Origin: Saprospiraceae bacterium | Lineage (GTDB): Bacteria; Bacteroidota; Bacteroidia; Chitinophagales; Saprospiraceae | Length of the DNA: 64,000 bases | NCBI GenBank assembly: GCA_030729925.1 | Contig: JANQWK010000086.1 | Location: 1-64,000 of the forward strand | Direction: 5' to 3' | Shown here: piece by piece, positions 58 to 50,489 of the stretch | How positions within the stretch are numbered: the stretch's first letter is position 1 | Layout of the letters: each line of letters starts with the position of its first letter | Position numbers and translations under genes: made by a program | The notes under the pieces: model-generated | Databases searched by the model: none | Told to the model about the DNA's origin: nothing | What the model saw: only the letters and a program-made list of their open reading frames with translations

Positions 58-110
58 TTCCGCTATTTCAAAGTTCGGGAGGAGAATTAGGGATTGGAAG
101 TATTTGGCAT

Positions 111-148
111 AAAAAAAGCCGGATGACATTTGTCATCCGGCTTTTTTT
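111..148 (-). terminator. Bidirectional rho-independent terminator after porV
   Basis: A perfect 10-bp stem (GCCGGATGAC, a 4-nt loop, GTCATCCGGC) is flanked by seven A on the left and seven T on the right, so it can terminate in both directions. It lies 15 bases beyond the porV stop codon and probably ends the minus-strand porU-porV transcript. Confidence 0.85.
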
Positions 149-162
149 ATTGCTGTGCTTTT

Positions 163-1368
163 TTAGGGCTGGAAAGCCCCGAAATCAAACAACAAGGAGA
201 ATCGAAGGGTATTGTCGAGGGGATTGCGCTGGCTGGTCGTTGGAATCAGATAAGAAAAATTAAGTCCAAAGATATTGTACTTCAAACCAAGACCCACGGT
301 AAAGAATTTTCTGTTTCCTTTCTGCACATGTTCATTAAAATAACCTGCCCTTACGGCAAACTGGTTGTCGTACCAGTACTCAATACCGGCAGAATACATC
401 AATTCCTTCATCTCCTCTGAAAATCCTTCTGGAGCATCGCTAAAAGAAGAAAAAATACCGGCAATGCTCGATTGCTGTTTGAAATCGGGTATCCCGTCTG
501 CCGGACTTTCATCACAGCCCACACCCTGGCAGGGAGTAGGTACCAACAATTTGTTGACATCCAGAGAAAAGGTAATGGAATTGTAAGCATCCAGGTTCAA
601 CTTGAGCGAGGAACCTAAACCCATGTTGGCGGGAAGAAAATCCCTTTCCAGCGAATTGGTATAGGTAATTTTAGAGCCTAAATTGGAAAGCGCCAGACCG
701 AGCGTCAGTTCCGATTCCTTGGCTCCCAAATTGAGTTCGGAGTTGTAAGTGAACGAAAAATCTGCCGCACCGGCCAACCCGGGTTCTATGGTTTCACCAC
801 CCACTTGCTGACCTGCTGCGAGGTTGGAGTAGATAAACTTACCGGTTACAGCCGCGGAAAATTTATCGGATAATTTCCGGGAATAGGCCACAGCGACTTC
901 AAATTCATTGGGACGTCCGGTGTTGAGCGGTTCCCCGTTGGCATCTGTAAATTGGATGCTACCCAATGAAAAATAACGCAAACTGAAGCCCAGCGACTGG
1001 AGGTCGTCCAGTTTGAGGGCACTGGTCAGATAAGCCAGATAAACGTCGTTCAGTCCCAGCGCTCTGAGCCAGGGGGTATAGGTAGCAGATACTGCAAAAT
1101 CTTCTTCAATAAAAACGAGTTTCGAAGCATTGAAGTGCATCGCGTTGGGATCGGCTGAAATGGCAATTCCCACATCTCCCATAGCAGCAGAGCGCGCATC
1201 GGCCACAATGCGAAGAAAAGGAACAGCAGTACCGACGGTGTTGGTACAGGGCGTGCCATCCAGGTTGTAAAACCGACCGTTTTCCTCAAAACATTGAGCA
1301 TAGGATGTTTGGAGCGCTACCCCTATCAAGGCGATAATGAGGAAGGTGTGTAGTCTTGGCTTCATCAT
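163..1368 (-). CDS. porV: Type IX secretion outer-membrane protein PorV (LptO)
   Basis: PorV is an outer-membrane beta-barrel of the FadL-like fold. In the T9SS it shuttles cargo from the translocon to the PorU sortase complex at the cell surface. The 401-residue protein has an N-terminal signal peptide ending near AQCF, then the family-typical segment FLRIVADARSAAMGDVGIA, a run of amphipathic strands, and a C-terminal strand ending in Phe-rich LLFDFGAFQP. Length fits the family. ATG codons at 1368 and 1365 are adjacent and either could be the start. It lies 84 bases after porU on the same strand, matching the porU-porV order of other Bacteroidota. Confidence 0.92.
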   Translation of the reverse strand: MMKPRLHTFLIIALIGVALQTSYAQCFEENGRFYNLDGTPCTNTVGTAVPFLRIVADARSAAMGDVGIAISADPNAMHFNASKLVFIEEDFAVSATYTPWLRALGLNDVYLAYLTSALKLDDLQSLGFSLRYFSLGSIQFTDANGEPLNTGRPNEFEVAVAYSRKLSDKFSAAVTGKFIYSNLAAGQQVGGETIEPGLAGAADFSFTYNSELNLGAKESELTLGLALSNLGSKITYTNSLERDFLPANMGLGSSLKLNLDAYNSITFSLDVNKLLVPTPCQGVGCDESPADGIPDFKQQSSIAGIFSSFSDAPEGFSEEMKELMYSAGIEYWYDNQFAVRAGYFNEHVQKGNRKFFTVGLGLKYNIFGLNFSYLIPTTSQRNPLDNTLRFSLLFDFGAFQP

Positions 1369-27233: not shown

Positions 27234-28613
27234 ATGGACAAGATGAAAAGAAGAGCTTTCATTCAGACCTCAGCTGCAGCCGGGGTAGGGCTTTCCGGTC
27301 TGAGTATGGCGGCTGAGTCGTCGCCTGCAGTTTTGCCGAAGGCGGCCAAATCACAAATCAATATCGGACTTATAGGCATGGGGATGCGTGGACAATCGCA
27401 TTTGAGTTTGTTGCTCAACCGCAGCGATTGTCGGGTAACGGCGATCTGTGATATAGACCAGTACATGCTGGATCAGACGAAAAAAATGGTGGAGAAGAAG
27501 GGCGCGCCGATGCCAAAGGTATATGGATTGGAGGAGCGGGCTTATTTGGAGATGTTGGAGGACAGTGACCTGGATGCAGTGATCATTTCTACGCCCTGGC
27601 GCTGGCATTCGGAGATGGCGATCGCAGCGATGAATGCGGGTAAGTATGTCGGGGTAGAGGTGAGTGGCGGTTTTTCGCTGGATGAGTGCTGGCAATTGGT
27701 CAATACGCACGAGGCTACCGGAACGCACTTGTTTTTCCTGGAGAACGTCTGTTACCGGCGCGATGTGATGGCGGTGTTGCAGATGGTGCGCGAGGGGCTT
27801 TTTGGCGAACTGATCCACCTGGAGGGGGGCTATCAGCACGATTTGAGGGGGGTGAAATTTAATGACGGTGCTACGCCTTATGACAGTGGAGTGGAATTTG
27901 GCGAGAAGGGTTTTAGCGAAGCGAAATGGCGTACGATACACTCCATTCACCGCAACGGAGACTTATACCCCACGCATGGCATAGGGCCTGTGGCCAATTA
28001 TATTGGCATCAACCGGGGCAATCGGTTTTTGTACCTGAGTTCGATGGCGTCTAAGAGTCGGGGCTTGCACGAGTACATCGTCAACCATGAGAAGGGAGGA
28101 AAGGATCACCCCAATGCCGCTGTTGAATTCAAGTTGGGAGATGTGGTGACCACGACCATCAAGACTTCCAACGGGGAATCTATCATACTCAGCCACGATA
28201 CCAATCTCCCACGTCCGTATTCGCTGGGCTTCCGGGTTCAGGGGACAAAGGGAATCTGGATGGATGTCAATAAGTCTATCTATTTTGAAGGGGTTAGCCC
28301 GGCGCACCGATGGGAGGAAGCCCAGCCCTGGCTGGAAAAATACGACCATCCGCTTTGGAAGCGGCTCGAGTCTTCGGCTACCGGAGCGGGTCACGGCGGC
28401 ATGGACTTTTTCCTGATCAATGCTTTTGTGCAATGTGCCAAGGAAAACATTGCGCCCCCGCTGGATGTCTATGACGCGGCCAGTTGGTTGGCGATTACGC
28501 CCTTGTCCGAGCAGTCTATTGCCAATGGCAGTACTTCTGTGGCTTTTCCCGACTTTACCCGGGGTCGTTGGATGTGGCGGAAGGACAATTTTGCCTTGAA
28601 CGACAGCTGGTAA
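27234..28613 (+). CDS. Exported Gfo/Idh/MocA oxidoreductase, GH109-like
   Basis: A 459-residue protein with a Tat-type signal (MKRRAFIQTSAAAGVG), a Rossmann nucleotide-binding motif GLIGMGMRGQSHL (about 44-56) and the Gfo/Idh/MocA C-terminal domain. THGIGPVANYIGINRGNRF and ENVCYRRDVMAVLQMVREG are typical of GH109, an NAD-dependent family with alpha-N-acetylgalactosaminidases. The usual E-K-P is replaced by EVSGG, as in GH109. ATG codons at 27234 and 27243 are both possible. Cofactor would be loaded in the cytoplasm before Tat export. It could instead be a glycoside 3-dehydrogenase. Confidence 0.8.
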   Translation: MDKMKRRAFIQTSAAAGVGLSGLSMAAESSPAVLPKAAKSQINIGLIGMGMRGQSHLSLLLNRSDCRVTAICDIDQYMLDQTKKMVEKKGAPMPKVYGLEERAYLEMLEDSDLDAVIISTPWRWHSEMAIAAMNAGKYVGVEVSGGFSLDECWQLVNTHEATGTHLFFLENVCYRRDVMAVLQMVREGLFGELIHLEGGYQHDLRGVKFNDGATPYDSGVEFGEKGFSEAKWRTIHSIHRNGDLYPTHGIGPVANYIGINRGNRFLYLSSMASKSRGLHEYIVNHEKGGKDHPNAAVEFKLGDVVTTTIKTSNGESIILSHDTNLPRPYSLGFRVQGTKGIWMDVNKSIYFEGVSPAHRWEEAQPWLEKYDHPLWKRLESSATGAGHGGMDFFLINAFVQCAKENIAPPLDVYDAASWLAITPLSEQSIANGSTSVAFPDFTRGRWMWRKDNFALNDSW

Positions 28614-33423: not shown

Positions 33424-34344
33424 ATGTTGAAATTGGCATATCTATACACCCATTCCGAGCTTACGCCTTGGAAGGAAAACGTGAACGAAGAGACCCTCGC
33501 GTTTTTGGTGGAACACACTCCGGAGTCTATCCAGTCGGAGGTGGTACATTTCGACGGATTCACCCCGGAGGTTCTGGCGCGTCTGCGGACTTTCGATTTG
33601 GTGTTCAATTTGTCGTATGGATATGAAACGGCTGGTCAGGTAGAAGTGGCGGCGTGGTTGGAGCAGCATGGTATTCGGCATACGGCTTCCCGAAAGGAGG
33701 CCATGGCCTTGGCGCAGGACAAGGGGCGCCTGCCTGAGATATGCCGCGTACTGGGATTGCGCACACCTGCCATTTATTACGCCCTTTCGGATTTGAACCC
33801 CGATATTGTGTATATCGCGAAGCCTCGGATGGGGAGTTGTCACCGAAACATTTCGATAGATACGGGTTTGAACTTGGGGTTAGCGCTTTCGGGGGAAGAA
33901 GATTTGATCATCCAGCCTTACATTTCCGGGCGAGAGTTTTCGGTAGCGGTTATTCCCGATAGCTTGGGTAGTGAGAACATCGCCTTGCCTCCGATCGAGA
34001 TTGAGCCGGAAAACAAGGGGGCTATCTATATTGCCGGGCAGTTGATGGGTAAGACCTCTCGCAATTTTTGTCCGGAGCTGGATGACACGCAAAGGACAGA
34101 TTTGATGGCGCAAGCGCTTGCTTTGCACAAGTATATCGGACTTAGCGGGATGTCGCGCACGGACTTTCGCATGGATGAGCGGGGCAGGATATATGCCCTT
34201 GATGTCAATGCCATGCCGAACATGGATCCGAAGCGATCCTTGTTACCTGCGCTGTGCCAGTACCACGGGGTGGAGATCGGAGAATTGATTCGCCGGGTGG
34301 TACTGGGGCAGGTTCCTGTTGCGGTTAGCGTTGCGTTGGATTAG
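33424..34344 (+). CDS. ATP-grasp ligase related to D-Ala-D-Ala ligase
   Basis: A 306-residue cytoplasmic protein with the D-alanine--D-alanine ligase fold. Recognisable parts are LVFNLSYGYETAGQVEVAAWLE (N-domain), YIAKPRMGSCHRNIS (ATP-binding loop), IQPYISGREFSVAVIP, and the metal-binding C-terminal block MSRTDFRMDERGRIYALDVNAMPNM, where Asp and Asn ligands are kept. The family's H-G-x-x-G-E-D motif near the N-terminus is altered to NLSYGYETAG. A true ddl is usually elsewhere, so this may join other amino acids. It stands alone between divergent and convergent neighbours. Confidence 0.78.
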   Translation: MLKLAYLYTHSELTPWKENVNEETLAFLVEHTPESIQSEVVHFDGFTPEVLARLRTFDLVFNLSYGYETAGQVEVAAWLEQHGIRHTASRKEAMALAQDKGRLPEICRVLGLRTPAIYYALSDLNPDIVYIAKPRMGSCHRNISIDTGLNLGLALSGEEDLIIQPYISGREFSVAVIPDSLGSENIALPPIEIEPENKGAIYIAGQLMGKTSRNFCPELDDTQRTDLMAQALALHKYIGLSGMSRTDFRMDERGRIYALDVNAMPNMDPKRSLLPALCQYHGVEIGELIRRVVLGQVPVAVSVALD

Positions 34345-34373
34345 GCTCCGCCAAAGGCCAACCGTTGTTTTGA

Positions 34374-35714
34374 TCAAAACTTCCGGTAAGTTCCTGACAA
34401 ATAAGCATTGGCTTCCGTTTCTCTGAATTTAGCGGTTTTGCTGTCCCAGTGCAGGGTTTTTCCCGGGAACCGTCCGGCTACCACGCCCAGCAGGATCGCT
34501 TCTGACAATCGGGCTGAATAAGAGAATGGGGCGCTGCAGCTCGCTTTACCCAGACAGGCATCCACAAACTCGTGGTAATGTTTGGGCGACTCGCCCGCGT
34601 AGTCGCGCACCGGTTCACCGAGTTGGTTATCGGGATCAAAAGTGGGGATATCGTAATCCTGGTATTGGCCGTTCACGATAAGTCGGGGAAGTTCCATAAA
34701 ATGGGGCAGTAGGAGTCGCCTGCCGTCTTTGCCAATAAACATGGCACCCTGATCGGGGAGTTTGTCGCCATTGGGCAGCTCCAGTTCCGGGCTTTTGTCG
34801 GGACCTGCTTCGCCATCGTACCAAACCCAGGTAAGCGTTTTGGTCGTAAATGGGGTTCCGGGGAAGGTATAAGTGACAACATTGCGTTCGGGGAAACCGA
34901 AATCATTGGGTTTCCGGCACTCATTTTTGACTGTTTTGGGGACATCCAGGTTGAGGGCATTGTAGGGGGTATCGAAGATATGAACGCCCATATCGCCCAG
35001 GGTAGCACAGCCGTAATCATTGAGTTTGCGCCAGTTCATCGGATGATAGACCTCCTGTTTGTAGGGCCTCTCTTTGGAAGTTCCCAGCCAGAGGTTCCAG
35101 TCGAGGGTACTCGGCACGGGATCTTCGCCACTGGGTGCGGCACCGTCATAGCCCCAATTTTTGTTGGACCAGGCGATTACCTTGCTGACTTTCCCGATGA
35201 CAGCTCCTTGGATCAGGAAGGTAGCCAATTTGTAATCGTAAAAAGAATGAACTTGTATGCCCATTTGGGTCACCAGATTTTTTTGCGCAGCGAGTTCCTT
35301 CATCGCGCGCACCTCTGACACGTAGTGCGCCAGTGGTTTTTGGCAATACACGGCCTTATCGTATTCCATGGCGAGCAGGGAAGCGGGAGCATGGGTATGG
35401 TCGGGGGTAGAAACCACCACGGCATCGAAGCTGTCGCCGTGTTGGGTAATCATATCGCGATAATCCTTGAAGCGCAGGGCATTCGGGAAGAGGTTGCCGG
35501 CTTGCGCCAAAAAAGTAGCATCCACATCGCAGAGGGCGGCGATCTCCACTTGGGGGTGAGCGGCCATGGTTTTGAGGTCTTCCAATCCCATATTGCCCAC
35601 GCCGATGTGGGCGATTCGCAATTTTTGGTTGGCTTTAGCGGCCATTAGCCCCTGTGGAAGCAAGGAAGAAGAAAGTGCGATGGCGGAATTTCTGATAAAT
35701 ATCCTTCTTTTCAT
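34374..35714 (-). CDS. Exported Gfo/Idh/MocA family oxidoreductase
   Basis: A 446-residue protein with a Tat-like signal (MKRRIFIRNSAIALSSS, twin Arg), a Rossmann motif HIGVGNMGLEDLKTM (about 36-50), and the family's active-site region VYCQKPLAHYVSE, where the E-K-P Lys is kept as QKP. The C-terminal domain has GDMGVHIFDTPYNAL. It is the third gene of a minus-strand operon after two DUF1080 proteins. Gfo/Idh/MocA enzymes next to DUF1080 proteins oxidise the 3-hydroxyl of glycosides in Bacteroides thetaiotaomicron; the same role is inferred here. Confidence 0.85.
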   Translation of the reverse strand: MKRRIFIRNSAIALSSSLLPQGLMAAKANQKLRIAHIGVGNMGLEDLKTMAAHPQVEIAALCDVDATFLAQAGNLFPNALRFKDYRDMITQHGDSFDAVVVSTPDHTHAPASLLAMEYDKAVYCQKPLAHYVSEVRAMKELAAQKNLVTQMGIQVHSFYDYKLATFLIQGAVIGKVSKVIAWSNKNWGYDGAAPSGEDPVPSTLDWNLWLGTSKERPYKQEVYHPMNWRKLNDYGCATLGDMGVHIFDTPYNALNLDVPKTVKNECRKPNDFGFPERNVVTYTFPGTPFTTKTLTWVWYDGEAGPDKSPELELPNGDKLPDQGAMFIGKDGRRLLLPHFMELPRLIVNGQYQDYDIPTFDPDNQLGEPVRDYAGESPKHYHEFVDACLGKASCSAPFSYSARLSEAILLGVVAGRFPGKTLHWDSKTAKFRETEANAYLSGTYRKF

Positions 35715-35735
35715 GAGTATAGTATTGAAAACAGT

Positions 35736-36512
35736 CTATAGAGGTCTGATTTTGATATTTCGGAACGACAATCCGCTGCCATGATCCTGGAATCCGATGA
35801 AGCCGCTTTTGAATTTGCCGTAATCGGGTGCCAGTTGCCACTTGCCGCTGTTCTTTTTGGCGTGCCAGTCGTCGCTCCAGGGCACAAACGACACCAGCAG
35901 GGCATCGTTGAGGTAGTACTCGGCCTTTTCCGGAGTAAACACGATCCGGGTCGTATTCCATTGTCCGGCGGGGTTGAGTTTCTTGACGGTAGTATCTGGG
36001 GGGTACATGGCATAATCTGCTCCGGTACTTTGCAGGAGCTGGAGCTGTTCGGGATTTTCGGTAAAGCCCAGACTGCGGTTGTACTCGGTGATATCGTGAA
36101 ATTTGGTGTAATTTTCATCATCAATCAACTGGTATTCCGGTGCCACTTCCGGGATGCCGTCATAGCCTTCCACCACGTGGTAAAAAATACCGCTGTTGCC
36201 TCCGGGTGGGATGTTCCACTCCACAACCAACTCAAAATTATCGAACTCTCGGGCTCCGTAGATGATATCCTTGCTGCCTTTGTAGTCGTAATCCTGCTCT
36301 AAGACGATTTCGGTAGAAAAAGTCAGCACACTGTCCACGATCGTCCAGCCGGGCGGAAGCACCTCGGCATTATAGCCGCGCCAGCCTTCCATAGAACTGC
36401 CATCGAAGAGGGTAATCCAATCACTTTCCGCTTCAGGCGGCTGTGGGGCACAGGCGGAAAAAACGGTAAGCAGTGCCAGCACACCGGGCACGTACAACTT
36501 ATTAACGTTCAT
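35736..36512 (-). CDS. DUF1080 lipoprotein, putative 3-keto-glycoside lyase/hydrolase
   Basis: A 258-residue lipoprotein (lipobox VFSAC, Cys20 when started at the ATG 36512; the frame opens at 36554). The DUF1080 beta-sandwich is shown by WITLFDGSSMEGWRGYN, FELVVEWNIPPGGNSGIFYHV and IGFQDHGSGLSFRNIKIRPL. DUF1080 proteins include enzymes that split 3-keto-glycosides. It follows the other DUF1080 gene by 11 bases and precedes the Gfo/Idh/MocA gene by 21, so the three are very probably one operon. Confidence 0.85.
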   Translation of the reverse strand: MNVNKLYVPGVLALLTVFSACAPQPPEAESDWITLFDGSSMEGWRGYNAEVLPPGWTIVDSVLTFSTEIVLEQDYDYKGSKDIIYGAREFDNFELVVEWNIPPGGNSGIFYHVVEGYDGIPEVAPEYQLIDDENYTKFHDITEYNRSLGFTENPEQLQLLQSTGADYAMYPPDTTVKKLNPAGQWNTTRIVFTPEKAEYYLNDALLVSFVPWSDDWHAKKNSGKWQLAPDYGKFKSGFIGFQDHGSGLSFRNIKIRPL

Positions 36513-36523
36513 AAAAGCTGCTG

Positions 36524-37114
36524 TTAAAGGGGTTTCAGTTGAATATTTTTCCAATACACCTTGATGCCGCCGCCATCGTGGATCTGCAGGGCAATAGCGC
36601 CTTTACCCGCCCCAATACCGTCATCCACGAGGCTGATCATCTTATGTCCGTTGAGCCAGGTGCTGACCTTTGCGTCCACTACCCGGATCTTTAGGGTGTT
36701 CCATTCGCCCATGCGAAGGTGCTTTTCTTTGCTGCTTTTGGGCTGTATGAGCCAGCCGCGGCCATACGATTCATAGATCCCGCCGGTGTGCAATCCGGGG
36801 GGTGCTACCTCGACCTGCCAACCACTGATTTTGGTGCCTTCCACCGTTGAACGAAAGAAGACCCCGCTGTTGCCATCGGCTTCCTGGCGGAACTCCAGGG
36901 TGAGTTCAAAGTTGTCATAGAAGTCAAGGGTACTCAGATAACCATAGGCTTTGTCCGGGCCGCTTTCACAAACCAAAGCCCCGTTTTCGACATACCATTT
37001 TTCGGTGCCGTGGATTTGCCATCCGCTCAGGTCTTTGCCGTTAAACAAGCTGATCTGCGCATATATCGCCGGCGTTAGCAAGGAGAGCACGACAAATAGA
37101 AGGTGATTTTTCAT
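36524..37114 (-). CDS. DUF1080 periplasmic protein, putative 3-keto-glycoside lyase/hydrolase
   Basis: A 196-residue protein with a signal peptide ending IYAQ (not a lipoprotein). DUF1080 features are SLFNGKDLSGWQIHG, FELTLEFRQEADGNSGVFFRS and GAIALQIHDGGGIKVYWKNIQLKPL. It is a compact, shorter paralogue of its downstream neighbour, and first gene of the operon. The start at 37114 is preferred over 37126 because it gives the clean signal MKNHLLFVVLSLL. The two paralogues may differ in substrate or location (soluble versus lipid-anchored). Confidence 0.85.
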   Translation of the reverse strand: MKNHLLFVVLSLLTPAIYAQISLFNGKDLSGWQIHGTEKWYVENGALVCESGPDKAYGYLSTLDFYDNFELTLEFRQEADGNSGVFFRSTVEGTKISGWQVEVAPPGLHTGGIYESYGRGWLIQPKSSKEKHLRMGEWNTLKIRVVDAKVSTWLNGHKMISLVDDGIGAGKGAIALQIHDGGGIKVYWKNIQLKPL

Positions 37115-37201
37115 AGCTACATTCAATAGGTTGAAACGACAATTTAATCATTTTTGCCGGGGCATCAAATGTTTTGCCCTTACCCAAAAAAAATTTCAAC
37201 A

Positions 37202-37294
37202 TAACCTGGGATGGAGGGTTACTTTTGGCGGGGGTGAAGGGATTAATAGGGGTAAATCAGGTGCAAGCCACCTTAAGGTGCCTTGCACCTGATT
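37202..37294 (-). repeat. Dispersed intergenic repeat, copy B, with 40-bp imperfect palindrome
   Basis: On the minus strand 37267-37202 matches copy A at the left edge of the window. At its end a palindrome spans 37255-37294. Its outer 13-bp arms are AATCAGGTGCAAG and CTTGCACCTGATT, there is one mismatched pair (C/C), and the inner 12 bp CACCTTAAGGTG are a perfect palindrome. As RNA this would be a long hairpin, but no T tract follows directly. It lies between the divergent DUF1080 operon and the VOC gene. Confidence 0.65.
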
Positions 37295-37331
37295 AATAAA
37301 TATTTGAAAACCAATACTTTAAATTTATTTT

Positions 37332-37730
37332 ATGCATCAACGCCTACATCAAATTGCGCTGGTCGTAAGGGACTACGACGAAGCGATTGCTTTTTACACG
37401 GAAAAACTGGCATTTCGGTTGGTTGAGGATACCCGGCTGACGCCGGAAAAACGTTGGGTGGTGGTACAGCCGCCGGGGGAGGACAGTTGTTGTTTGTTGC
37501 TGGCTAAGGCGGCAAATGGCGAGCAATTGACCCGGGTGGGCAATCAGACGGGGGGTCGGGTTTTTTTGTTTTTGCATACGGATGATTTGCAGCGGGACCA
37601 TGCGCGTTTGCTGCGAGAAGAGATAGTGATTGTGCGTGGCCCGGTGGAAGAGCCTTTCGGGAAGGTACTCGTTTTTGAAGATTTGTACGGAAATCTATGG
37701 GATCTGATTGAGCCGATAAAACCTGCATAG
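37332..37730 (+). CDS. VOC (glyoxalase/bleomycin-resistance fold) family protein
   Basis: A 132-residue VOC-fold protein. MHQRLHQIALVVRDYDEAIAFY is the typical opening, with His6 as a likely metal ligand. LRWVV-like strands and FLHTDDLQRDHARL form the second half, and the end VFEDLYGNLWDLIEP carries the usual second-half Glu. Members include glyoxalases and dioxygenases; the substrate is unknown. It sits beside the repeat palindrome and 72 bases before the pectin locus begins. Confidence 0.88.
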   Translation: MHQRLHQIALVVRDYDEAIAFYTEKLAFRLVEDTRLTPEKRWVVVQPPGEDSCCLLLAKAANGEQLTRVGNQTGGRVFLFLHTDDLQRDHARLLREEIVIVRGPVEEPFGKVLVFEDLYGNLWDLIEPIKPA

Positions 37731-37802
37731 CAATTGTGAAAAAATGCGCAGGGGGGGTGGATTTTTTCCGGTAAACTTGCCTTTCAACTAACCGGATTGC
37801 TT

Positions 37803-39020
37803 ATGAAACGTTATTCCCTCCCCCTTGCTGCAGGTTTGGTGTTTTTTGCCGCCTGCGGCAGTCCTGAAGAAAAAATGGCCATCAGATTGTCTAATCCCTC
37901 CGAAGGGGCAGTGACAGATGCGGCAGTTGTGCTGGATCCCGCCCAGCTTCCCCCGGCGGACTGGTCGAAAACGGCTTTTTTTGCCGCAGGGGCGGCCTTG
38001 CCTTTTCAGGCGAATGACGTGGATGGCGACGGACAGGTGGATGAAATCGTGTTGCTGACCAGCCTGGAAGCAGGAGGGACTCAGCTGGTGGAGCTGCAGG
38101 AGGTGGACGAGCTTCCCGCGTTTCCAAAACGCACCCAGGCAGAGTTGTCGCACAAGGTGGGAGGTACCTGGGAGGAGCGTGTTTACCAGGGTGGGGAGTT
38201 CCAAAACGTGGATGCGCTGCGGGTTCCGGCAGAACACACCGACCATTCCTTCTATATCCGCTACGAGGGGCCCGGCTGGGAGTCCGACAAGGTGGGATAC
38301 CGCTTTTACCTCGATTGGCGCAATGCGACCGATATTTTCGGCAAAACGGTTCCGGATATGGTGCTGCAGGATGTCGGCCAGGATGGTTTCGATTCCTACC
38401 ACGAAATGGCCAATTGGGGCATGGATGTGCTCAAGGTAGGACAGTCCCTGGGCGTGGGAAGTTTTGGGACCTGGGAAAACGGCAAGGCGGAGCGAGTGGC
38501 GCTGACCGATTCTATTTTTTGCGCGGTAGCGGCAAACGGTCCTGTGCATTCGATGATTCGAACCGAGTATTTGGGCTGGCAAGCCGGGGGCAAAAAACAG
38601 GATCTTCGGTCCGAATTGTCTATTGTGGCAGGGAGTCGCCTTACCCAACATACCCTCAACTGGGAACAACCTCTGGATAGTTTGTGCACGGGGATCGTGA
38701 AACTCGACAATTCGGAACTGCTGACAAATACCTCCGGCACCTGGGGATACCTGGCCACTTGGGGGCAACAGAGTCTGAACAACGATATGCTGGGCATGGC
38801 GGTGTTGTTTCGCTCGGCCGATGCACTGGCTCTGACCGCCGATGAACATAGCCATGTGGTCGTCCTCCAAGCTGAGCCCGACAACCAATTGACGTACTAC
38901 TTCCTGGGAGCTTGGGAAAAAGAACCCGGCGGTATTACCACCCGCGAAGCCTTCATAGCGTATTTGGATGAGGTGCTGGCACAACTCAACCAACCCCTGC
39001 TTGTACAATATAACCCCTAA
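37803..39020 (+). CDS. DUF4861 family lipoprotein in the pectin locus
   Basis: A 405-residue lipoprotein (lipobox FFAAC, Cys18). It begins with a small beta domain (RLSNPSEGAVTDAAVVL), has a VDGDGQVDEIVLL Asp-rich loop and then a large beta-sandwich-like domain (SDKVGYRFYLDWRNATDIFGK, YHEMANWGMDVLKVGQSLGVG). Proteins of the DUF4861 family are recurrent neighbours of uronate catabolic genes in Bacteroidota, but I know of no firm activity. The ATG at 37803 is used; the in-frame TTG at 37797 is an unlikely start. KduI follows 11 bases later. A carbohydrate-active enzyme acting on uronate oligomers is a fair guess. Confidence 0.75.
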   Translation: MKRYSLPLAAGLVFFAACGSPEEKMAIRLSNPSEGAVTDAAVVLDPAQLPPADWSKTAFFAAGAALPFQANDVDGDGQVDEIVLLTSLEAGGTQLVELQEVDELPAFPKRTQAELSHKVGGTWEERVYQGGEFQNVDALRVPAEHTDHSFYIRYEGPGWESDKVGYRFYLDWRNATDIFGKTVPDMVLQDVGQDGFDSYHEMANWGMDVLKVGQSLGVGSFGTWENGKAERVALTDSIFCAVAANGPVHSMIRTEYLGWQAGGKKQDLRSELSIVAGSRLTQHTLNWEQPLDSLCTGIVKLDNSELLTNTSGTWGYLATWGQQSLNNDMLGMAVLFRSADALALTADEHSHVVVLQAEPDNQLTYYFLGAWEKEPGGITTREAFIAYLDEVLAQLNQPLLVQYNP

Positions 39021-39031
39021 ATACCAACCAG

Positions 39032-39862
39032 ATGGAAATCAAGTATGCAGCACACCCCGAGGATGTGAAGTCCTACGGCACCAATCGCCTTCGCTCGGCT
39101 TTCCTGAGTACCAACTTGCTGGTAGAGGACGAAATACGACTGGTTTACACCCACTATGACCGCTTCGTGTACGGCGGGATCAAGCCTGTCGGCAAAACCC
39201 TTACGCTGGGCACCTACGACGAACTCAAATCGGATTTTTTCCTGCAAAGGCGCGAAATGGGGGTCATTAACGTAGGTGGATCCGGTGTGATCCGGGTTGA
39301 CGGGCAGGCGCATGTGATGGACAAATACGATGTACTTTATGTCGGAAGAGGCGCACAGGAGCTGGTCTTTGAAAGTCAATTGCCCGGGCAGCCGGCACTT
39401 TTCTACCTCAACTCCTGTCCGGCTCATCAGACCTTTCCCACGGTAAAAAACAGCAGGGCGCAGGCCAACAAGGTGGAACTGGGCGATCAGCTCACCATCA
39501 ATAAGCGCACCCTGTATCAGTACATTCACGAAAACGGAATTGCGAGCGCCCAATTGGTGATGGGGTACACCGAGCTTGCACCCGGAAATGCCTGGAATAC
39601 CTTCCCGCCGCATACCCACGACCGCCGCATGGAAGTGTATTTTTATTTCGACCTTCCGGAAGATCAAATTGTGGTTCATTTTATGGGGCAACCCGACGAG
39701 TCCCGGCATCTTGCGGTGCACAACCATCAGGCTGTGCTGTCGCCTCCCTGGTCTATCCATTCGGGGGCGGGAACCAGTGCTTATTGTTTTGTGTGGGGCA
39801 TGGCCGGAGAAAACAAAGCATTTACGGATATGGACGGGATTTCCCTGCTGGAATTTAGATAA
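39032..39862 (+). CDS. kduI: 5-dehydro-4-deoxy-D-glucuronate isomerase KduI
   Basis: KduI isomerises 5-keto-4-deoxyuronate, the product of unsaturated uronate ring opening, to 3-deoxy-D-glycero-2,5-hexodiulosonate in the cytoplasm. The 276-residue cupin has zinc ligands His194, His196, Glu201 (in PPHTHDRRMEVYFYF) and His243 (SPPWSIHSG), with the same spacing as the E. coli enzyme. No signal peptide. It is followed by kduD after 11 bases, the next enzyme in the path. Confidence 0.95.
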   Translation: MEIKYAAHPEDVKSYGTNRLRSAFLSTNLLVEDEIRLVYTHYDRFVYGGIKPVGKTLTLGTYDELKSDFFLQRREMGVINVGGSGVIRVDGQAHVMDKYDVLYVGRGAQELVFESQLPGQPALFYLNSCPAHQTFPTVKNSRAQANKVELGDQLTINKRTLYQYIHENGIASAQLVMGYTELAPGNAWNTFPPHTHDRRMEVYFYFDLPEDQIVVHFMGQPDESRHLAVHNHQAVLSPPWSIHSGAGTSAYCFVWGMAGENKAFTDMDGISLLEFR

Positions 39863-39873
39863 AACAAAGGAAT

Positions 39874-40641
39874 ATGGTATTGGATAGCTTTAGACTAGAC
39901 GGCAAACTGGCGCTGGTGACGGGCTGCAAGCGAGGTATCGGATATGCGATGGCTGTGGCACTGGCAGAAGCCGGGGCGGATATCATCGGGGTGTCGGCTT
40001 CCCTGGAGCCGGAGGGGTCGGCTATTGCAAAAGCAGTAACGGGTAGTGGTAGAAAGTTTTATGCGTATTCCTGTGATTTTAGCGACCGGGGGGAACTCTA
40101 TACTTTCTTGGGAAACATCCGCGCTTCCCATCCCGTCCCGGATATTTTGGTCAACAATGCGGGGACTATCCTGCGTGCTCCGGCAGCGGAACACCCGGAC
40201 GACTATTGGGATAAAGTTCTTGCGATCAACCTGGACGCTCAGTTTATTTTGAGTCGTGAAATTGGTCGGTCCATGATAGCCAGAGGCAGTGGAAAGATCA
40301 TTTTTACAGCTTCTTTACTGACTTTTCAGGGGGGGATCACGGTGCCAGGCTATGCGGCATCCAAGGGAGCTATCGGGCAACTGACCATGGCGCTGTCCAA
40401 CGAATGGGCCGCCCACGGGGTGCAGGTCAATGCGATTGCTCCAGGGTATATCGCCACGGACAATACGGAAGCCCTGCGCCAGGATCCTCAACGCAGCGCG
40501 GCTATTTTAGGGCGTATCCCGGCAGGCCGATGGGGCAGTCCGGAAGATTTTAAAGGGCCGATTGTCTTTCTGGCTTCTTCCGCTTCGGACTATATGAGCG
40601 GAACCATCCTGACGGTGGACGGGGGCTGGATGGGCAGGTAA
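39874..40641 (+). CDS. kduD: 2-dehydro-3-deoxy-D-gluconate 5-dehydrogenase KduD
   Basis: KduD reduces 3-deoxy-D-glycero-2,5-hexodiulosonate to 2-keto-3-deoxygluconate. The 255-residue short-chain dehydrogenase has the NAD loop GCKRGIG near residues 15-21, NNAG in the middle, and the catalytic Tyr160-x-x-x-Lys164 (YAASK). The start MVLDSFRLDGKLALVTG and IPAGRWGSPEDFKGPIVFLA match the family. Tightly coupled to kduI; a GH43 gene follows 17 bases later. Confidence 0.94.
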   Translation: MVLDSFRLDGKLALVTGCKRGIGYAMAVALAEAGADIIGVSASLEPEGSAIAKAVTGSGRKFYAYSCDFSDRGELYTFLGNIRASHPVPDILVNNAGTILRAPAAEHPDDYWDKVLAINLDAQFILSREIGRSMIARGSGKIIFTASLLTFQGGITVPGYAASKGAIGQLTMALSNEWAAHGVQVNAIAPGYIATDNTEALRQDPQRSAAILGRIPAGRWGSPEDFKGPIVFLASSASDYMSGTILTVDGGWMGR

Positions 40642-40658
40642 GTATAAAAAACAACTTC

Positions 40659-42272
40659 ATGAAAAACGAAACATCCAACTGGCTGGTGACAGCCCTGTTC
40701 TTGCTTTGCCATCACGGTTTGACAGGGCAGGTGTGGCGCGCTGATAACGGCGATGGTACTTATTCCAATCCCATTTTGTATGCCGACTATTCCGATCCGG
40801 ATGTGATCCGAGTGGGGGACGACTATTACATGACCGCTTCGAGCTTCAATTGCACCCCCGGATTGCCGATTCTGCATTCCAAAGACCTCGTTAACTGGTC
40901 GCTGATCAATTACGCCTTGCCCAGGCAGTATCCCGAGGAGGTTTTTGACCAACCCCAGCATTTCAAGGGCGTATGGGCACCCTGCATCCGCTACCGCGAT
41001 GGGATATACTACATTTATTACGGAGATCCCGATTTTGGGATTTATCAGTTGAAGGCGGAAGATCCGGCGGGGGAGTGGTCGGAACCGGTGTTGGTCAAAC
41101 CGGGCAAGGGACTGATAGATTCCTCCCCCCTTTGGGATGACGACGGACAAGCCTACCTGGTACACGCCTGGGCTGCCAGCCGCGTACAGGTCAATTCTCT
41201 GCTCACGGTGCACCGGATGAATTCGGAAGGTACGCGGGTTCTGGATCGCGGCAAACACGTATTCGACGGACACGATGCCCATCCGACGGTAGAGGGTCCC
41301 AAGTTTTATAAGCGCAAGGGCTATTACTATATTTTTGCCCCGGCAGGCGGGGTCGCCACGGGTTGGCAACTGGTACTGCGTTCGCGCAACATCTATGGGC
41401 CGTATGAGGAAAAAGTGGTACTTGCCCAGGGAAATACCGCCATTAACGGCCCTCATCAGGGAGCATGGGTGGATACTCCGGAGGGTACCTCTTGGTTTAT
41501 CCATTTTCAGGATGTAGAGGCTTATGGCAGGATTGTACACCTTCAGCCTGTGCAATGGGTGGATGATTGGCCGGTAATCGGTGCAGATCCGGATGGGGAT
41601 GGCATGGGTGAGCCGGTACTGCGGCATGTAAAACCCCATGCGGATACCAAACACTTATCTGTGAGTCCACCCGAAAGCGATGAATTTTCCGGTGGGGAAC
41701 TCGGTTTGCAGTGGCAATGGCACGCCAATCCGCAGTTGGTATGGTCGGCGCTCCTTCCGGGAAAAGACCACCTTCGCTTGTTTGCCCTACCGCGCTCAGC
41801 CCAATTTATCAACCACTGGGAAACACCCAACCTGCTGCTGCAGAAATTCCCTGCCCCCGATTTTACCGCTACCGCAAAAATCACCCTCGAGGCTACTGAT
41901 GCAGACCAAAGTGGCGGACTGCTGGTCATGGGAAGAAGTTACAGTGCCCTGCAACTGACAAAAGTTTCCGATGGCTACGTACTCCAACAGGTCATTTGTG
42001 AACAGGCGGATAAAGGAAAGCCGGAGGTTGTGGTAGCCTCGCGCCCGCTTCGCGAAAAAAACCTTTATCTCCGGGTACAGGTCAGAGGGCCTGAAGCGCG
42101 GTGTACGTTTAGTTTCAGTACGGACGGACAAACTTTTGAACCCATCGGGGACCCTTTCACGGCTGTTCCGGGCGGGTGGATCGGTGCAAAAGTGGGTTTG
42201 TTTGCCGGAAAAGGATCGGGTTCGGCCCGCGGAGGATATCTGGATGTGGACTGGTTTAGGATCACCCCTTAA
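40659..42272 (+). CDS. Glycoside hydrolase family 43 with C-terminal sandwich domain
   Basis: A 537-residue exported enzyme. After a signal peptide, the five-bladed GH43 propeller (about 28-330) starts NPILYADYSDPDVIRVGDDYYMTAS (the base Asp lies in the D-P-D region), continues with SSPLWDDDGQAYLVH (transition-state Asp region), and has the acid Glu in PTVEGPKFYKRKGYYYIF. A C-terminal beta-sandwich domain (about 345-535) with LQWQWHANP and LFAGKGSGSARGGYLDVDWF is typical of GH43 beta-xylosidase/arabinofuranosidase types. In a pectin locus it probably removes arabinose or xylose side chains (inference). Confidence 0.9.
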   Translation: MKNETSNWLVTALFLLCHHGLTGQVWRADNGDGTYSNPILYADYSDPDVIRVGDDYYMTASSFNCTPGLPILHSKDLVNWSLINYALPRQYPEEVFDQPQHFKGVWAPCIRYRDGIYYIYYGDPDFGIYQLKAEDPAGEWSEPVLVKPGKGLIDSSPLWDDDGQAYLVHAWAASRVQVNSLLTVHRMNSEGTRVLDRGKHVFDGHDAHPTVEGPKFYKRKGYYYIFAPAGGVATGWQLVLRSRNIYGPYEEKVVLAQGNTAINGPHQGAWVDTPEGTSWFIHFQDVEAYGRIVHLQPVQWVDDWPVIGADPDGDGMGEPVLRHVKPHADTKHLSVSPPESDEFSGGELGLQWQWHANPQLVWSALLPGKDHLRLFALPRSAQFINHWETPNLLLQKFPAPDFTATAKITLEATDADQSGGLLVMGRSYSALQLTKVSDGYVLQQVICEQADKGKPEVVVASRPLREKNLYLRVQVRGPEARCTFSFSTDGQTFEPIGDPFTAVPGGWIGAKVGLFAGKGSGSARGGYLDVDWFRITP

Positions 42273-42281
42273 AATTTGCTT

Positions 42282-43235
42282 ATGCGACTGTTTTTTGTTT
42301 GGATGATCATGAGTGCGTTTGCGGTAGCCGGCGAGGCTACCCAGTCAGATTGGGATTATGTCGTAGCAGCTGACGGGAGCGGAGACTTCGCCCGGATCCA
42401 GGAAGCCATTGATGCGGTACCTCACCTGCGGGCCAATCGGACGGTCATTTTTATCAAAAAAGGAACCTACAAAGAAAAACTATTGCTGCCTTCCACCAAG
42501 ACGAATGTCACGTTTATCGGGGAGGATGTGCATACCACTATTTTGACCTGGGATGATTACGCCAGCAAGCCGAACCGCTTTGGCGAAAACATCGGCACCT
42601 CCGGATCTGCTTCCTTTTTTGTCAACGGCGACGGGTTTGAAGCCTACAACCTGACTTTCGAAAACAGCAGCGGCCCTGTTGGACAGGCAGTTGCTGTGCG
42701 GATAGATGGCGACAAAGTGAAATTTGAAAATTGCCGCTTTCTCGGTTTTCAGGATACCCTGTATTTGCACGGCGACCGCAGCCGGCAGTATTACAAGAAC
42801 TGCTACATCGAGGGTACGGTGGATTTTATTTTTGGATCCGCTACCGCCCTGTTCGAAAACTGTGAGATCCGCTGCAAAAAAGGGGGCTACATCACGGCAG
42901 CTTCCACTCCCCCGGGAAAGGATTACGGTTTGGTGTTTCTGAGTTGCAGGATCACCGCAGATGCTCCCGACGCGCGTTTTTACCTGGGAAGACCCTGGCG
43001 TAATTACGCCAAAACGGTTTTTGTTCAATGCTACCTGGATGCCCATATCCGCACGGAGGGCTGGCACAACTGGAACAAGCCGGAGGCAGAACAAAGTGTG
43101 GTTTATGCAGAATATTTGTCCTATGGTCCGGGCGCGGCTACAGAAGGCCGAGCGTCCTGGTCGCAACAGCTAAGTCCGGAAGCAGCCGAAAATTATACCA
43201 AAGAAAGAATCCTGGGCGACTGGAATCCAAAGTAA
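42282..43235 (+). CDS. Pectin methylesterase, CE8
   Basis: Removes methyl groups from homogalacturonan, opening it to pectate lyases. The 317-residue protein has a signal peptide (MRLFFVWMIMSAFAVAG) and the right-handed beta-helix. The catalytic aspartates are Asp158 in GFQDTL and Asp181 in DFIFG; QAVAVRIDGD precedes and FYLGRPWRNYAKTVF holds the substrate Arg. The ATG at 42282 is used rather than the TTG at 42276. It begins 9 bases after the GH43 stop and precedes a CE12 gene. Confidence 0.94.
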   Translation: MRLFFVWMIMSAFAVAGEATQSDWDYVVAADGSGDFARIQEAIDAVPHLRANRTVIFIKKGTYKEKLLLPSTKTNVTFIGEDVHTTILTWDDYASKPNRFGENIGTSGSASFFVNGDGFEAYNLTFENSSGPVGQAVAVRIDGDKVKFENCRFLGFQDTLYLHGDRSRQYYKNCYIEGTVDFIFGSATALFENCEIRCKKGGYITAASTPPGKDYGLVFLSCRITADAPDARFYLGRPWRNYAKTVFVQCYLDAHIRTEGWHNWNKPEAEQSVVYAEYLSYGPGAATEGRASWSQQLSPEAAENYTKERILGDWNPK

Positions 43236-43261
43236 ACTACTCCAAAAAAAAACGATCAACC

Positions 43262-44011
43262 ATGAAAAAGACCTTTCTCCTCCTGATGCCGTTGCTCCTC
43301 CTGAGCATGAAAGCCGATAAAAAAACCATTACTGTTTTTCTGGCGGGCGATTCTACCATGGCTTTCAAGCCCAAAACCGAACACCCCGAGCGAGGCTGGG
43401 GAATGATGTTGGAGCCCTTGTTCAACGACAAAGTGCGTTTCGACAATCGCGCTAAGAACGGGCGGAGCACCAAAACCTTTCTAGCTGAGGGGATATGGGA
43501 CGGCATCATGGCGGATGTCGCGAAAGGCGATTATGTGGTCATCCAATTTGGTCACAACGACAGCAGTAAGGAAAAAGGCGAACGCTATACGACTCCGGAG
43601 CAGTACCGCAAAAACCTGGAGTTCATGGTCACAACCACCCGCGCCAAAAAAGCCCACCCCATCCTCTGTACCCCGGTTGTGCGCCGTCGCTTCGACCAGG
43701 ACGGGAAGTTTTATGATTCCCACGGCGAATATCCGGATTTGGTCAGACAAGTAGCGGCAGCCATGAAAGTCCCCCTGATAGACATGCACCGCAGCAGCGA
43801 GAAGGTCATTGTGGCACATGGAGAAGAAGACTCCAAAAAGATATTCCTGCACATCGCTCCCGGAGCCTATCCCGTTTTGCCGGAAGGCATGACCGATAAC
43901 ACCCACTTTTCGGCCTATGGAGCAGGATTGATGGCAGAGTTGTTCGCCGAAGGACTGGAAAATCAGGCTGTACGACTGGCAAAACACTTGAAAAAGGCCG
44001 CCGTGAAATAA
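43262..44011 (+). CDS. Rhamnogalacturonan acetylesterase, CE12 (SGNH)
   Basis: Removes acetyl groups from rhamnogalacturonan. The open frame extends to 43028 inside the CE8 gene, but the ATG at 43262 gives a signal peptide (MKKTFLLLMPLLLLSMKA) and 249 residues. SGNH blocks are visible: Ser31 in LAGDSTMAF, Gly in NRAKNGRSTKTF, Asn in IQFGHNDSSKEKG, and Asp212/His215 in DNTHFSAYGA. The set matches CE12 in pectin loci. A 147-bp gap with a promoter candidate follows. Confidence 0.92.
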   Translation: MKKTFLLLMPLLLLSMKADKKTITVFLAGDSTMAFKPKTEHPERGWGMMLEPLFNDKVRFDNRAKNGRSTKTFLAEGIWDGIMADVAKGDYVVIQFGHNDSSKEKGERYTTPEQYRKNLEFMVTTTRAKKAHPILCTPVVRRRFDQDGKFYDSHGEYPDLVRQVAAAMKVPLIDMHRSSEKVIVAHGEEDSKKIFLHIAPGAYPVLPEGMTDNTHFSAYGAGLMAELFAEGLENQAVRLAKHLKKAAVK

Positions 44012-44112
44012 AATTTTTTGCTGTAAGCACCGGTATTGCAAGAATTTTTATTCCGGAAAAAAATAGCGCAGCATTTGTTAATTCTGGAATAGTCCTACAA
44101 GATAAGCGCCTC

Positions 44113-44120
44113 TAAATTTG
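44113..44120 (+). promoter_or_regulatory. Candidate -7 box for the pectate lyase gene
   Basis: TAAATTTG is an exact TAnnTTTG match 38 bases before the PL1 start. No TTTG at the expected -33 distance. The 147-bp gap before PL1 suggests a transcript break inside the locus. Confidence 0.4.
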
Positions 44121-44158
44121 AAACGAGACATTACCCCAATCAACCTTGAATCCATAAT

Positions 44159-45718
44159 ATGAAAAATGCAATTATCTTTTTTTGCTGGTTGTTGTATCCG
44201 TTCCTGCTGGGTGCGCAGGAGTCCGGGCCTGTAGGCTGGGCTTCCCTGAATGGGGGGACAAGCGGAGGGGCAGGAGGGGATACGGTGCGGATAGACAGTC
44301 GGTCGGACTTACTCTTCTACACCGCAGCCACGGCGCCTTATGTGCTGCTGATTGAGGATACCATCCGGTTGAACCTCTACGAACGGGTGCCGGTTCGAGG
44401 CAACAAGACCCTCGTAGGCACAGGCACGGGCGCTACGGTGCTCAATGGGGGTATAGAAATCAAAGGCAATAACGTGATCGTGCGCAACCTGCGTATTACC
44501 GGTTCGTATGATGGCGACTGGGACGGAAAGACCCATTCTACCGATGCCATAACTGTATATGGTAAAAATGTGTGGATTGACCACTGCGATCTGTCTGCTT
44601 CTTCGGATGGCTTACTCGATATCCGATCAGACGGGAGTACTCCCGCAGATTATGTGACCATTTCCTGGACTCGGCTGAGCAACCACAACAAGGTCATGCT
44701 CTTTGGTTCTGGCGATGACGAGGTCGTCTTGCGCAACCATCTTCGGGTGACCCTCCACCATTGCTGGTTCGACGGGTATCCGGAGCGCGGCATCCACCAG
44801 CGCATGCCCCGGGTGAGGTTTGGCGACGTACACCTGCTCAATAACTTTTTTGACGACATTGCCTCTTATTGCGTTGCAGCCCGATTTGAATCGGATTTGG
44901 TGGTCGAGAACAACTACTTCCGCAACAGTAAGCATCCGCACAACATAGAGGACAAGGGATTGGGGCTGGAAGACCCGGATCTGGTTGCGGTGGGCAATAT
45001 CTATGACAATTGCAGCGGTTCCAGGGTCTCTGGCGGAACGGCCTTTCGTCCGGGCGATTTTTATACCTATACGGCAGAGGATCCCCAACACCTGCCTGCC
45101 CGTATCATGAACGGCGCGGGTTTGCTGAATGATCCCAACAACCTTGCCCCGATGGCGGCGGTGGACGAACTGGTGCTGCCCGCAGCGAGCAATAGCAGTC
45201 ATACCCTGGATGTTTTGTCCAACGATACCGATCCTGACGGGGGGGAGTTGCGCCTTGCGGCGCTCATTCGAGCGCCCAGGGGGAATGCGCGTATTTTGGA
45301 CAATAAGTTGCGCTATACCAGTCCCTTTGATATCGGCAAGCCCGATACTTTGGTCTATCAGTTGGTAGATCTACAGGGGGGTATAGATACGGGTTTGGTG
45401 GTACTCCACTTTGGCACCCTCACGGCATGGCAGGAAGCCCCTCCGGGATTTGACCTGTTGGTCTATCCCAATCCGGGTCGAGAAAACATATCCGTTGAAT
45501 ACCACCATCCGGGCGGAAATCGGGGCATTTCAGGAATGCGACTGGAGGTCATTGACCTGCAGGGGCGCAGGCAAGCGGTCAGTGCCGATATCAGGCAAGC
45601 GGGCAGCGGGCGGTCTGTATTTCGCCTGAACACGGGATCGTTGCGCTCCGGGCACTATGTGGTTCGCATCACGGACGGAAGCTATCTGCTCACCCAAACC
45701 ATAACCATCGTCAAGTAA
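44159..45718 (+). CDS. Pectate lyase family 1 with Ig-like and T9SS sorting domains
   Basis: A 519-residue secreted enzyme. The signal peptide ends in LLGAQ. The PL1 beta-helix (about 25-330) shows STDAITVYGKNVWIDHCDLSASSDGLLDI (calcium region), a Trp/Ser strand and GYPERGIHQRMPRVRFGDVHLLNNFF with the catalytic Arg neighbourhood. A Big/cadherin-like Ig domain (about 340-425) has HTLDVLSNDTDPDGGELRL. The C-terminus is a T9SS type A domain (FDLLVYPNPGRENISVEY, GHYVVRITDGSYLLTQTITIVK). It should be exported to the surface by T9SS and depolymerise de-esterified homogalacturonan. Confidence 0.92.
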   Translation: MKNAIIFFCWLLYPFLLGAQESGPVGWASLNGGTSGGAGGDTVRIDSRSDLLFYTAATAPYVLLIEDTIRLNLYERVPVRGNKTLVGTGTGATVLNGGIEIKGNNVIVRNLRITGSYDGDWDGKTHSTDAITVYGKNVWIDHCDLSASSDGLLDIRSDGSTPADYVTISWTRLSNHNKVMLFGSGDDEVVLRNHLRVTLHHCWFDGYPERGIHQRMPRVRFGDVHLLNNFFDDIASYCVAARFESDLVVENNYFRNSKHPHNIEDKGLGLEDPDLVAVGNIYDNCSGSRVSGGTAFRPGDFYTYTAEDPQHLPARIMNGAGLLNDPNNLAPMAAVDELVLPAASNSSHTLDVLSNDTDPDGGELRLAALIRAPRGNARILDNKLRYTSPFDIGKPDTLVYQLVDLQGGIDTGLVVLHFGTLTAWQEAPPGFDLLVYPNPGRENISVEYHHPGGNRGISGMRLEVIDLQGRRQAVSADIRQAGSGRSVFRLNTGSLRSGHYVVRITDGSYLLTQTITIVK

Positions 45719-45735
45719 ACTGAAAAAAAAATAAC

Positions 45736-47028: not shown

Positions 47029-47087
47029 TTATTAGCGACACAAAAAATGAAAGCCTATGCACCCTATTTGACAACAGCAAAAAGATG

Positions 47088-47153: not shown

Positions 47154-47198
47154 CAATAATATTTTGATTAATCCACGATCTAACGAAATTTTTTGCTC

Positions 47199-50462: not shown

Positions 50463-50489
50463 TTGAACCCAACCAAAACTTGAAGCATC

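Follow-up and report, generated by a model that had tools for sequence, protein, structure and literature searches.

DUF1080 (PF06439) is one of the families of non-hydrolytic glycoside cleavage, and Pfam names the whole domain by one activity. This mode of cleavage is reportedly broad among gut and soil bacteria, according to 2024 work by Nasseri and by Kastner. Bacteroides thetaiotaomicron uses a separate TIM-barrel protein beside its DUF1080 protein BT2157, which binds calcium. The dehydrogenase BT2158 is termed a periplasmic glycoside 3-dehydrogenase (PMC11300592). The window analysed here, a stretch of 64,000 nucleotides from a Saprospiraceae bacterium (GCA_030729925.1, contig JANQWK010000086.1, positions 1 to 64,000), contains a minus-strand cluster of three genes in the order D1-D2-GF, which encode two DUF1080 proteins and a Gfo/Idh/MocA dehydrogenase (Table 1). 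Judging from the sequences, this operon is likely to serve a 3-keto-glycoside pathway of some kind. The full proposal, to which a probability of about 0.42 is given, is that the three genes would constitute a compact periplasmic 3-keto-glycoside pathway in which GF oxidises, D2 eliminates and D1 hydrates.

According to this proposal, GF would oxidise the C3 hydroxyl of the sugar in the periplasm using bound NAD, and D2 would then eliminate the aglycone to yield a 2-hydroxy-3-keto-glycal. D1 would hydrate this common intermediate, and GF or another Gfo enzyme related to it would probably reduce the resulting 3-keto sugar. The sequences show the families, the conserved residues, the order of the genes and their recurrent pairing and fusion, and we infer the activities, the location, the substrate and the division of steps between D1 and D2 alike. 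The physical layout is as the sequence-only reading had described it, with three clustered genes, export signals on all products, one lipid-anchored and one soluble DUF1080 protein. The open reading frame coordinates confirm gaps of 11 bases between D1 and D2 and 21 bases between D2 and GF, and the leaders, read by eye, fit a Sec type in D1 (MKNHLLFVVLSLLTPAIYA-Q), a lipobox in D2 (...LLTVFSA-C) and a twin-arginine-like signal in GF (MKRRIFIRNSA...). Among relatives, regular expressions find a lipobox in 10 of 77 D1 and 14 of 21 D2 proteins (fusions excluded) and a K/R-K/R-x-F leader in 16/16 close GF proteins. A consensus scan of the minus strand from 33900 to 37900 found no terminator-like site and no promoter-like site, the latter result carrying little weight for this phylum.

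Table 1. Genes and conserved codons of the D1-D2-GF locus, in window positions
Feature	Position	Strand	Basis
D1, 196-amino-acid exported small DUF1080 protein, A-type (Q-x-E, Q-x-H)	36524..37114	-	ATG start, Pfam, tree side
D1 Q100-V-E102 codons (E-x-Q in the BT2157 branch)	36809..36817	-	both residues in 78/78 D1 rows
D1 His179 codon, counterpart of BT2157 His275	36578..36580	-	alignments; 9FBE has His->Asn there
D2, 258-amino-acid lipoprotein-type DUF1080 protein, B-type, BT2157-like	35736..36512	-	ATG start, Pfam, AlphaFold 2 model
D2 E126-Y-Q128-L-I-D131 motif codons	36120..36137	-	E, Q, D in 25/25 D2 rows and BT2157
D2 His244 codon (Q-D-H-G), counterpart of BT2157 His275	35781..35783	-	25/25 D2 rows; 9FBE alignment
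GF, 446-amino-acid exported Gfo/Idh/MocA dehydrogenase, nearest the BT2158 family	34374..35714	-	ATG start, Pfam
GF Lys126 codon (K-P motif, C-Q-K-P-L)	35337..35339	-	7/7 aligned rows and 8TDF
GF His245 codon (G-D-M-x-x-H-I; G-D-M-G-V-H-I in the window)	34980..34982	-	7/7 aligned rows and 8TDF

D2 matches PF06439 at 5.9e-41 (141 bits, cut-off 26.8). Among solved sequences 3U1X is closest to it (6.3e-39), the BT2157 entries scoring about 1e-25, and its AlphaFold 2 model (predicted local distance difference test score, pLDDT, 88.7) matches 3U1X with a Z score of 29.4 and the BT2157 entries with Z of about 27. The solved relatives of D2 bear the PDB titles '3-keto-glycoside eliminase/hydratase' (8RR2, 9FBE) and '3-Keto-2-hydroxy-glucal-hydratase' (8TDA, 8V31). 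In an alignment of 78 true D1 rows and 25 D2 rows, from which the counts of D1 and D2 rows in Table 1 are taken, E126, Q128, D131, K224, D243 and H244 of D2 are present in every D2 row and also in BT2157. The sequence-only reading had named the loss of active-site residues in both DUF1080 paralogues as an outcome that would undo it; D2 retains the set, and a loss of both active sites is ruled out by these conserved residues.

GF contains PF01408 (60.3 bits, cut-off 24) together with PF19051, and carries both this domain and the lysine of the K-P motif, as is characteristic of the Gfo/Idh/MocA family. The closest solved sequences are 8TDF (8.6e-41 over residues 29-440) and 8TDH (2.4e-40), with the third match at only 3.1e-10, and the best NCBIfam model is the glycoside 3-dehydrogenase BT_2158_fam (NF058561, 4.2e-87, 292.8 bits). 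The lysine and histidine motifs were followed in seven aligned rows, comprising GF of the window and six orthologues of 63-66% identity. By sequence, GF probably works like the BT2158 glycoside 3-dehydrogenase, membership of the curated equivalog aside.

D1 is the divergent member of the trio. It matches PF06439 at 6.2e-39 (134.4 bits, cut-off 26.8) and its AlphaFold 2 model (pLDDT 91.4) is closest to the N-terminal half of 4JQT (Z 25.4, root-mean-square deviation 1.8, 178 residues), followed by other DUF1080 structures (Z 18.7-20.7), with the carbohydrate-binding module CBM66 among them at rank 6 (4AZZ, Z 19.9, root-mean-square deviation 2.1, 154 residues). Of the BT2157-type residues only His179 is retained, and a Q-x-E motif takes the place of E-x-Q, an equivalence that rests on a profile alignment to 4JQT at a position where MAFFT left a gap. 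The strand equivalence was taken from alignment and secondary structure, with D1 and D2 modelled singly. The 3-keto-glycoside assignment of the sequence-only reading is supported by homology for GF, nearest to BT_2158_fam and to 8TDF/8TDH, and for the BT2157-like D2, and needs correction for D1, which lacks most of the BT2157 residues. Across the D1 branch a different set is kept, consisting of Q100, E102, Y114, R119, N139, D164, Q177 and H179, in 96 rows of which 82 are distinct and 14 duplicates; in the N-terminal halves of tandem DUF1080 proteins Q100 is found in 10/10 and E102 in 9/10.

The histidine shared by D1, D2 and BT2157 is of particular relevance to the proposed hydration step. BT2157 His275 aligns with D2 His244 and D1 His179. 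According to PMC13273386 the H275N variant of the B. thetaiotaomicron lyase still eliminates, and served for that step, but is defective in hydration. The chain of 9FBE differs from the BT2157 fragment by a change of His to Asn within Q-D-H-G. This Asn can be placed at position 275, because BT2157 is 290 amino acids long (PMC11003636) and the PDB numbers the chains 59..289.

A maximum-likelihood tree of 80 DUF1080 domains, sampled mostly from Bacteroidota and representing part of PF06439, separates two sides with a support of 99/98. D1 falls on one side, together with the D1 halves of fusions and the N-terminal halves of ten tandem proteins; the other holds D2, the tandem C-terminal halves, BT2157, 3U1X and other single DUF1080 proteins. 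Two rows on long branches, both carrying an E-x-Q motif, were also placed with D1. When these were removed along with two long C-terminal halves, the split was recovered at 100/100 and in 100% of 200 bootstrap trees (30 versus 46 rows), although the caution due to long branches persists. The tandem proteins of the relatives, ten in number and 431-508 amino acids in length, have the A-B order, and a pattern search of their motifs returned two of ten C-terminal halves without the B motif (one match possibly being spurious) and one N-terminal half without Q-x-E. The deep split rules out a recent D1/D2 duplication. The two DUF1080 proteins noted by the sequence-only reading belong to separate branches and are not ordinary paralogues. 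It is proposed, at a little under even odds, that DUF1080 comprises two ancient branches acting as an elimination and hydration pair, that the D1 branch forms a separate type of enzyme possessing an active site of its own (Q-x-E, Y, R, D, H) and that D1 and D2 together represent an all-DUF1080 solution to steps carried out elsewhere by TIM-barrel metalloenzymes. The two branches are described in no title or abstract listed by the literature searches, which did not extend to the 2024 work of Nasseri and of Kastner.

When ten D1 orthologues were used to scan named genomes, at least 584 relatives were confirmed, and the best 80, with 64-72% identity, were kept; these loci are related to one another, so that counts among them do not represent independent events. 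Their sources include Flavobacteriaceae, Chitinophagaceae, Saprospiraceae, one Cytophagales, three Gemmatimonadetes, one Rhodothermia and one Thermoanaerobaculia record. D1-D2-GF with a close GF recurs in the order of the window in 12 of the best 80 loci, and the arrangement is therefore not considered a product of chance. In L089 and L115 D2 and GF of such a triplet are separated by 2.4 or 1.2 kb. Other orders are D1-GF (four loci), a GF-like gene (26-33%) followed by D2-D1 (five), D2-D1 (three), D1 and D2 on either side of a GF-like gene (one) and a GF-like gene ahead of a D2=D1 fusion (three, all Gemmatimonadetes). Altogether D1 is adjacent to or fused with D2 in 24/80. The D1 branch, by these sequence comparisons, is strongly conserved and often paired with the D2 branch.

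In 52 of the best 80 loci the strand of D1 carries no D2 or GF homologue from 2.6 kb upstream of D1 to 4.5 kb downstream of it, a span fully sequenced in 42 of the 52. In 17 of these 52, and in 45 of all 80 loci (within 3 kb in 42), a profile search of the whole fetched stretches detected a further gene for a DUF1080, Gfo or TIM-barrel protein, leaving 35 without such a partner; L052, where the match is D1 itself, was excluded from the count. In seven loci (L048, L051, L068, L070, L081, L102 and L104) a DUF1080 frame of 315-333 amino acids, checked against Pfam in L048, lies just downstream on the opposite strand and converges on D1. A Gfo enzyme follows D1 in L096, and L099 contains a TIM barrel, a DUF1080 protein and Gfo enzymes. 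In L080 (1278-5850) an MFS/nucleoside symporter, two TIM barrels and a frame matching the DUF1080 profile precede D1 on the same strand, resembling the L036 cluster of the window's own genome described below.

Three further arrangements were observed at D1 loci. In L111 (12819-15041) genes for a GMC oxidoreductase and gluconate-dehydrogenase subunit 3 lie convergently next to a D1-D2-GF triplet, which brings flavin- and NAD-type oxidation genes together in a single locus. In L034 (628-3086) D1 lies immediately upstream of a same-strand GMC oxidoreductase. An HGSNAT-like membrane acetyltransferase (PF07786 in L041) is located at or near the upstream edge of D1-D2-GF in L041, L055, L089 and L090.

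The genome samples add fusions and co-occurrence to this picture. Among 40 relatives, two encode D1=D2 fusions: one of 445 amino acids in G018, with GF and a GH109-like gene after it, and one in G011 that is cut by the contig end. G007 has D2-GF with D1 elsewhere, G002 D1-GF without D2, and G024 a D2-like gene (48%) beside D1 with GF on another contig; D1 and GF are on different contigs in G015 and G017, the GF copy of G015 containing an internal stop. In the wider sample of the window's class G138 encodes a D2=D1 fusion, D2-D1 are adjacent in G128 and G157, with a GF-like gene preceding the pair in G128, and a GF-like gene follows D1 in G174. Because fusions occur in both orders, D1 and D2 are likely to function jointly. 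A close GF (counted at E up to 1e-150) is present in 7 of 41 genomes, the window's included, all of which are among the ten with D1; at 1e-60 the count is 8 of 40 genomes. Across the class-wide sample D1 is found in 6/197 and a close GF in 4/197, all four with D1, and in the three of these other than the window's genome (two of one genus) GF and D1 are on different contigs. The probability of such nesting at random is about 5e-6 for the 41 genomes and about 2.5e-7 for the 197, figures that ignore kinship and are made too strong by it. Each of the 14 other D1-bearing genomes examined contains additional DUF1080 matches, the totals being 7 to 18 when D1 and both halves of tandem proteins are included, and the window's genome has three.

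The assignment of hydration to D1 is suggested by three observations: the hydration histidine (His179) is retained, D1 is often without a partner (35/80), as would fit an enzyme for a shared intermediate, and sequence varies less among D1 rows than among D2 rows (mean column identity of 70% over 34 rows versus 54% over 25), as would fit a small fixed substrate, although selection of the loci for resemblance to D1 biases this last comparison. Several points weigh against the proposed pathway. GF scores far below the equivalog cut-off of NF058561, which is 750 bits. D1 and GF lie far apart in several genomes, and the 35 partnerless D1 genes stand, where inspected, among genes without an evident link to sugars (penicillin amidase, peptidase, amidase, receptor-like). 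D1 itself lacks the E, D and K residues and the D before His, so that another activity is possible, and BT2157 alone is titled eliminase/hydratase, so that a second hydratase is not required. Growth on raffinose-family sugars was unimpaired by deletions of BT2157 and BT2158 (PMC11501099), no phenotype on lactose was seen for ten Pedobacter DUF1080 genes (PMC9007349) and the DUF1080 protein THTE_1561 is reported as a hydrolase (PMC10881899).

The two DUF1080 roles might also be exchanged, with D1 acting as an eliminase, for instance on the anomer not accepted by D2, D2 as the hydratase and D1 in place of the TIM-barrel lyase of other loci. A separate eliminase is expected from the titles of 8TDA and 8V31, hydratase, and D1 does possess an invariant set of its own (Q100, E102, Y114, R119, D164, H179). 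The Agrobacterium pathway relies on a TIM-barrel enzyme for elimination, and preliminary evidence assigns hydration there to a second putative sugar phosphate isomerase (PMC10628242). No PF01261 TIM barrel was found among 30 window proteins scanned, which represent part of the window, a tblastn search of the whole window with three TIM barrels was empty at 1e-4, and no such gene was found in the stretches fetched for the 12 D1-D2-GF loci; in this the locus is unlike 3-keto loci where a separate TIM-barrel lyase/hydratase gene (PF01261) lies beside DUF1080. This exchange of roles is nevertheless somewhat unlikely, as greater variation than D1 shows would be expected of an enzyme that binds diverse aglycones, the histidine that D1 keeps is the hydration residue, and L080, where two TIM barrels are among the genes preceding D1, indicates that D1 and TIM barrels can coexist. 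It is improbable that D1 is a non-enzymatic carbohydrate-binding or structural partner of D2 with a CBM-like jelly roll: its model is indeed close to CBM66, and domains on either side of a catalytic domain, as in the fusions of both orders, are typical of CBMs, but the solved DUF1080 enzymes have the same CBM66-like fold, D1 is mostly free-standing and exported (fused in only 3 of the best 80 loci) and its polar residues are kept in the tandem N-terminal halves despite low identity. The prospect that the DUF1080 proteins are polysaccharide hydrolases and GF an unrelated sugar dehydrogenase stems from THTE_1561, a 23.7-kDa Thermogutta endo-xanthanase reported to hydrolyse xanthan and beta-glucans (PMC10881899). 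This is very improbable here, since the residues and closest structures of D2 are those of 3-keto enzymes and the pairing with a BT2158-like dehydrogenase recurs. The oxidation by GF, elimination by D2 and hydration by D1 remain the preferred reading.

The sequence-only reading had also noted the position of the operon next to a pectin locus. This locus (37797-54007) encodes DUF4861 (with BT3233-family similarity), KduI, KduD, GH43, pectinesterase, GDSL, PL1 and GH88 proteins together with SusC, SusD and DUF4957/DUF5123, and lies on the plus strand, opposite to D1-D2-GF. At an E of 1e-10 over half of the query, homologues of DUF4861, KduI, GH43, pectinesterase, PL1 and GH88 are found in none of the stretches of the best 80 D1 loci, where the only relatives are KduD-like SDR proteins (2) and SusC (7); the stretches of the relatives contain one pectinesterase (L032) and one KduD-like SDR (L031). 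With the linkage not conserved and the strands opposed, a pectin role for D1-D2-GF is rejected on synteny and the adjacency looks like an accident of position.

On the other side, an ATP-grasp protein (33424-34344, plus strand), similar to D-Ala-D-Ala ligase and far below the NCBIfam cut-offs, converges on the operon. A GH109-like Gfo enzyme (27234-28613, plus strand; PF21252, 8.1e-88) is adjoined by an MGH1-like glycoside hydrolase (25989-27164, plus strand) that weakly resembles glucosylglycerate hydrolase (45.7 bits against a cut-off of 550). Homologues of the GH109-like protein (34-36%) adjoin fused D1=D2 in L026 and L027 and a 63% homologue lies near D1 in L035. Since it lies on the opposite strand at a distance of about 5.8 kb, the gene in the window was rejected as a fourth member of the operon and remains a lead. 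Elsewhere in the window's genome, L036 (G000:C44:71001-91000) contains a GMC oxidoreductase, gluconate 2-dehydrogenase subunit 3, three xylose-isomerase-like TIM barrels, a nucleoside/MFS symporter, a Gfo enzyme and the third DUF1080 protein of the genome, which has BT2157-type residues. By its predicted gene content, L036 is a second 3-oxidation-type cluster in this genome.

Compared with the B. thetaiotaomicron proteins, D2 shares the fold of BT2157 (PDB 3OSD, 8RR2, 9FBE, 8TDA) and its E-x-Q-x-x-D, K and Q-D-H residues at 28-34% identity by structure alignment, and differs in being accompanied by a second, divergent DUF1080 protein. D1 has the fold in common with BT2157, and only the His of these residues. 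GF aligns with the BT2158 family (NF058561; 8TDF/8TDH) over nearly its full length and keeps the Lys and His motifs, while remaining outside the curated equivalog (292.8 versus 750 bits). BT3469 (PDB 4JQT), a tandem DUF1080 protein with 31-32% identity to D1 and D2, has G-Y-Q-F-E-I in its N-terminal half and C-E-F-Q-I-L-D in its C-terminal half by profile alignment, and so combines a D1-type and a D2-type domain in a single chain; a literature search found no function for it in the papers listed. If two cooperating branches with different active sites do exist, the activity name given by Pfam misleads for one of them, and the gut organism B. thetaiotaomicron carries both in one solved protein. 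D1 is widespread, with its at least 584 confirmed relatives.

The four-step logic proposed for D1-D2-GF, oxidation, elimination, hydration and reduction, is the same as that of the Agrobacterium operon with AtOGE and AtHYD. The components are unlike, since AtOGE is a TIM-barrel Mn enzyme and the oxidation is performed by a flavoenzyme (PMC10628242). In the Caulobacter lactose route of LacABC and DUF1080 the DUF1080 protein is proposed to act in the periplasm after 3-oxidation (PMC9007349), as is suggested here for D1 and D2. The dehydrogenase of that route is of a different type from GF, and the window's genome has its GMC-type cluster elsewhere, in L036.

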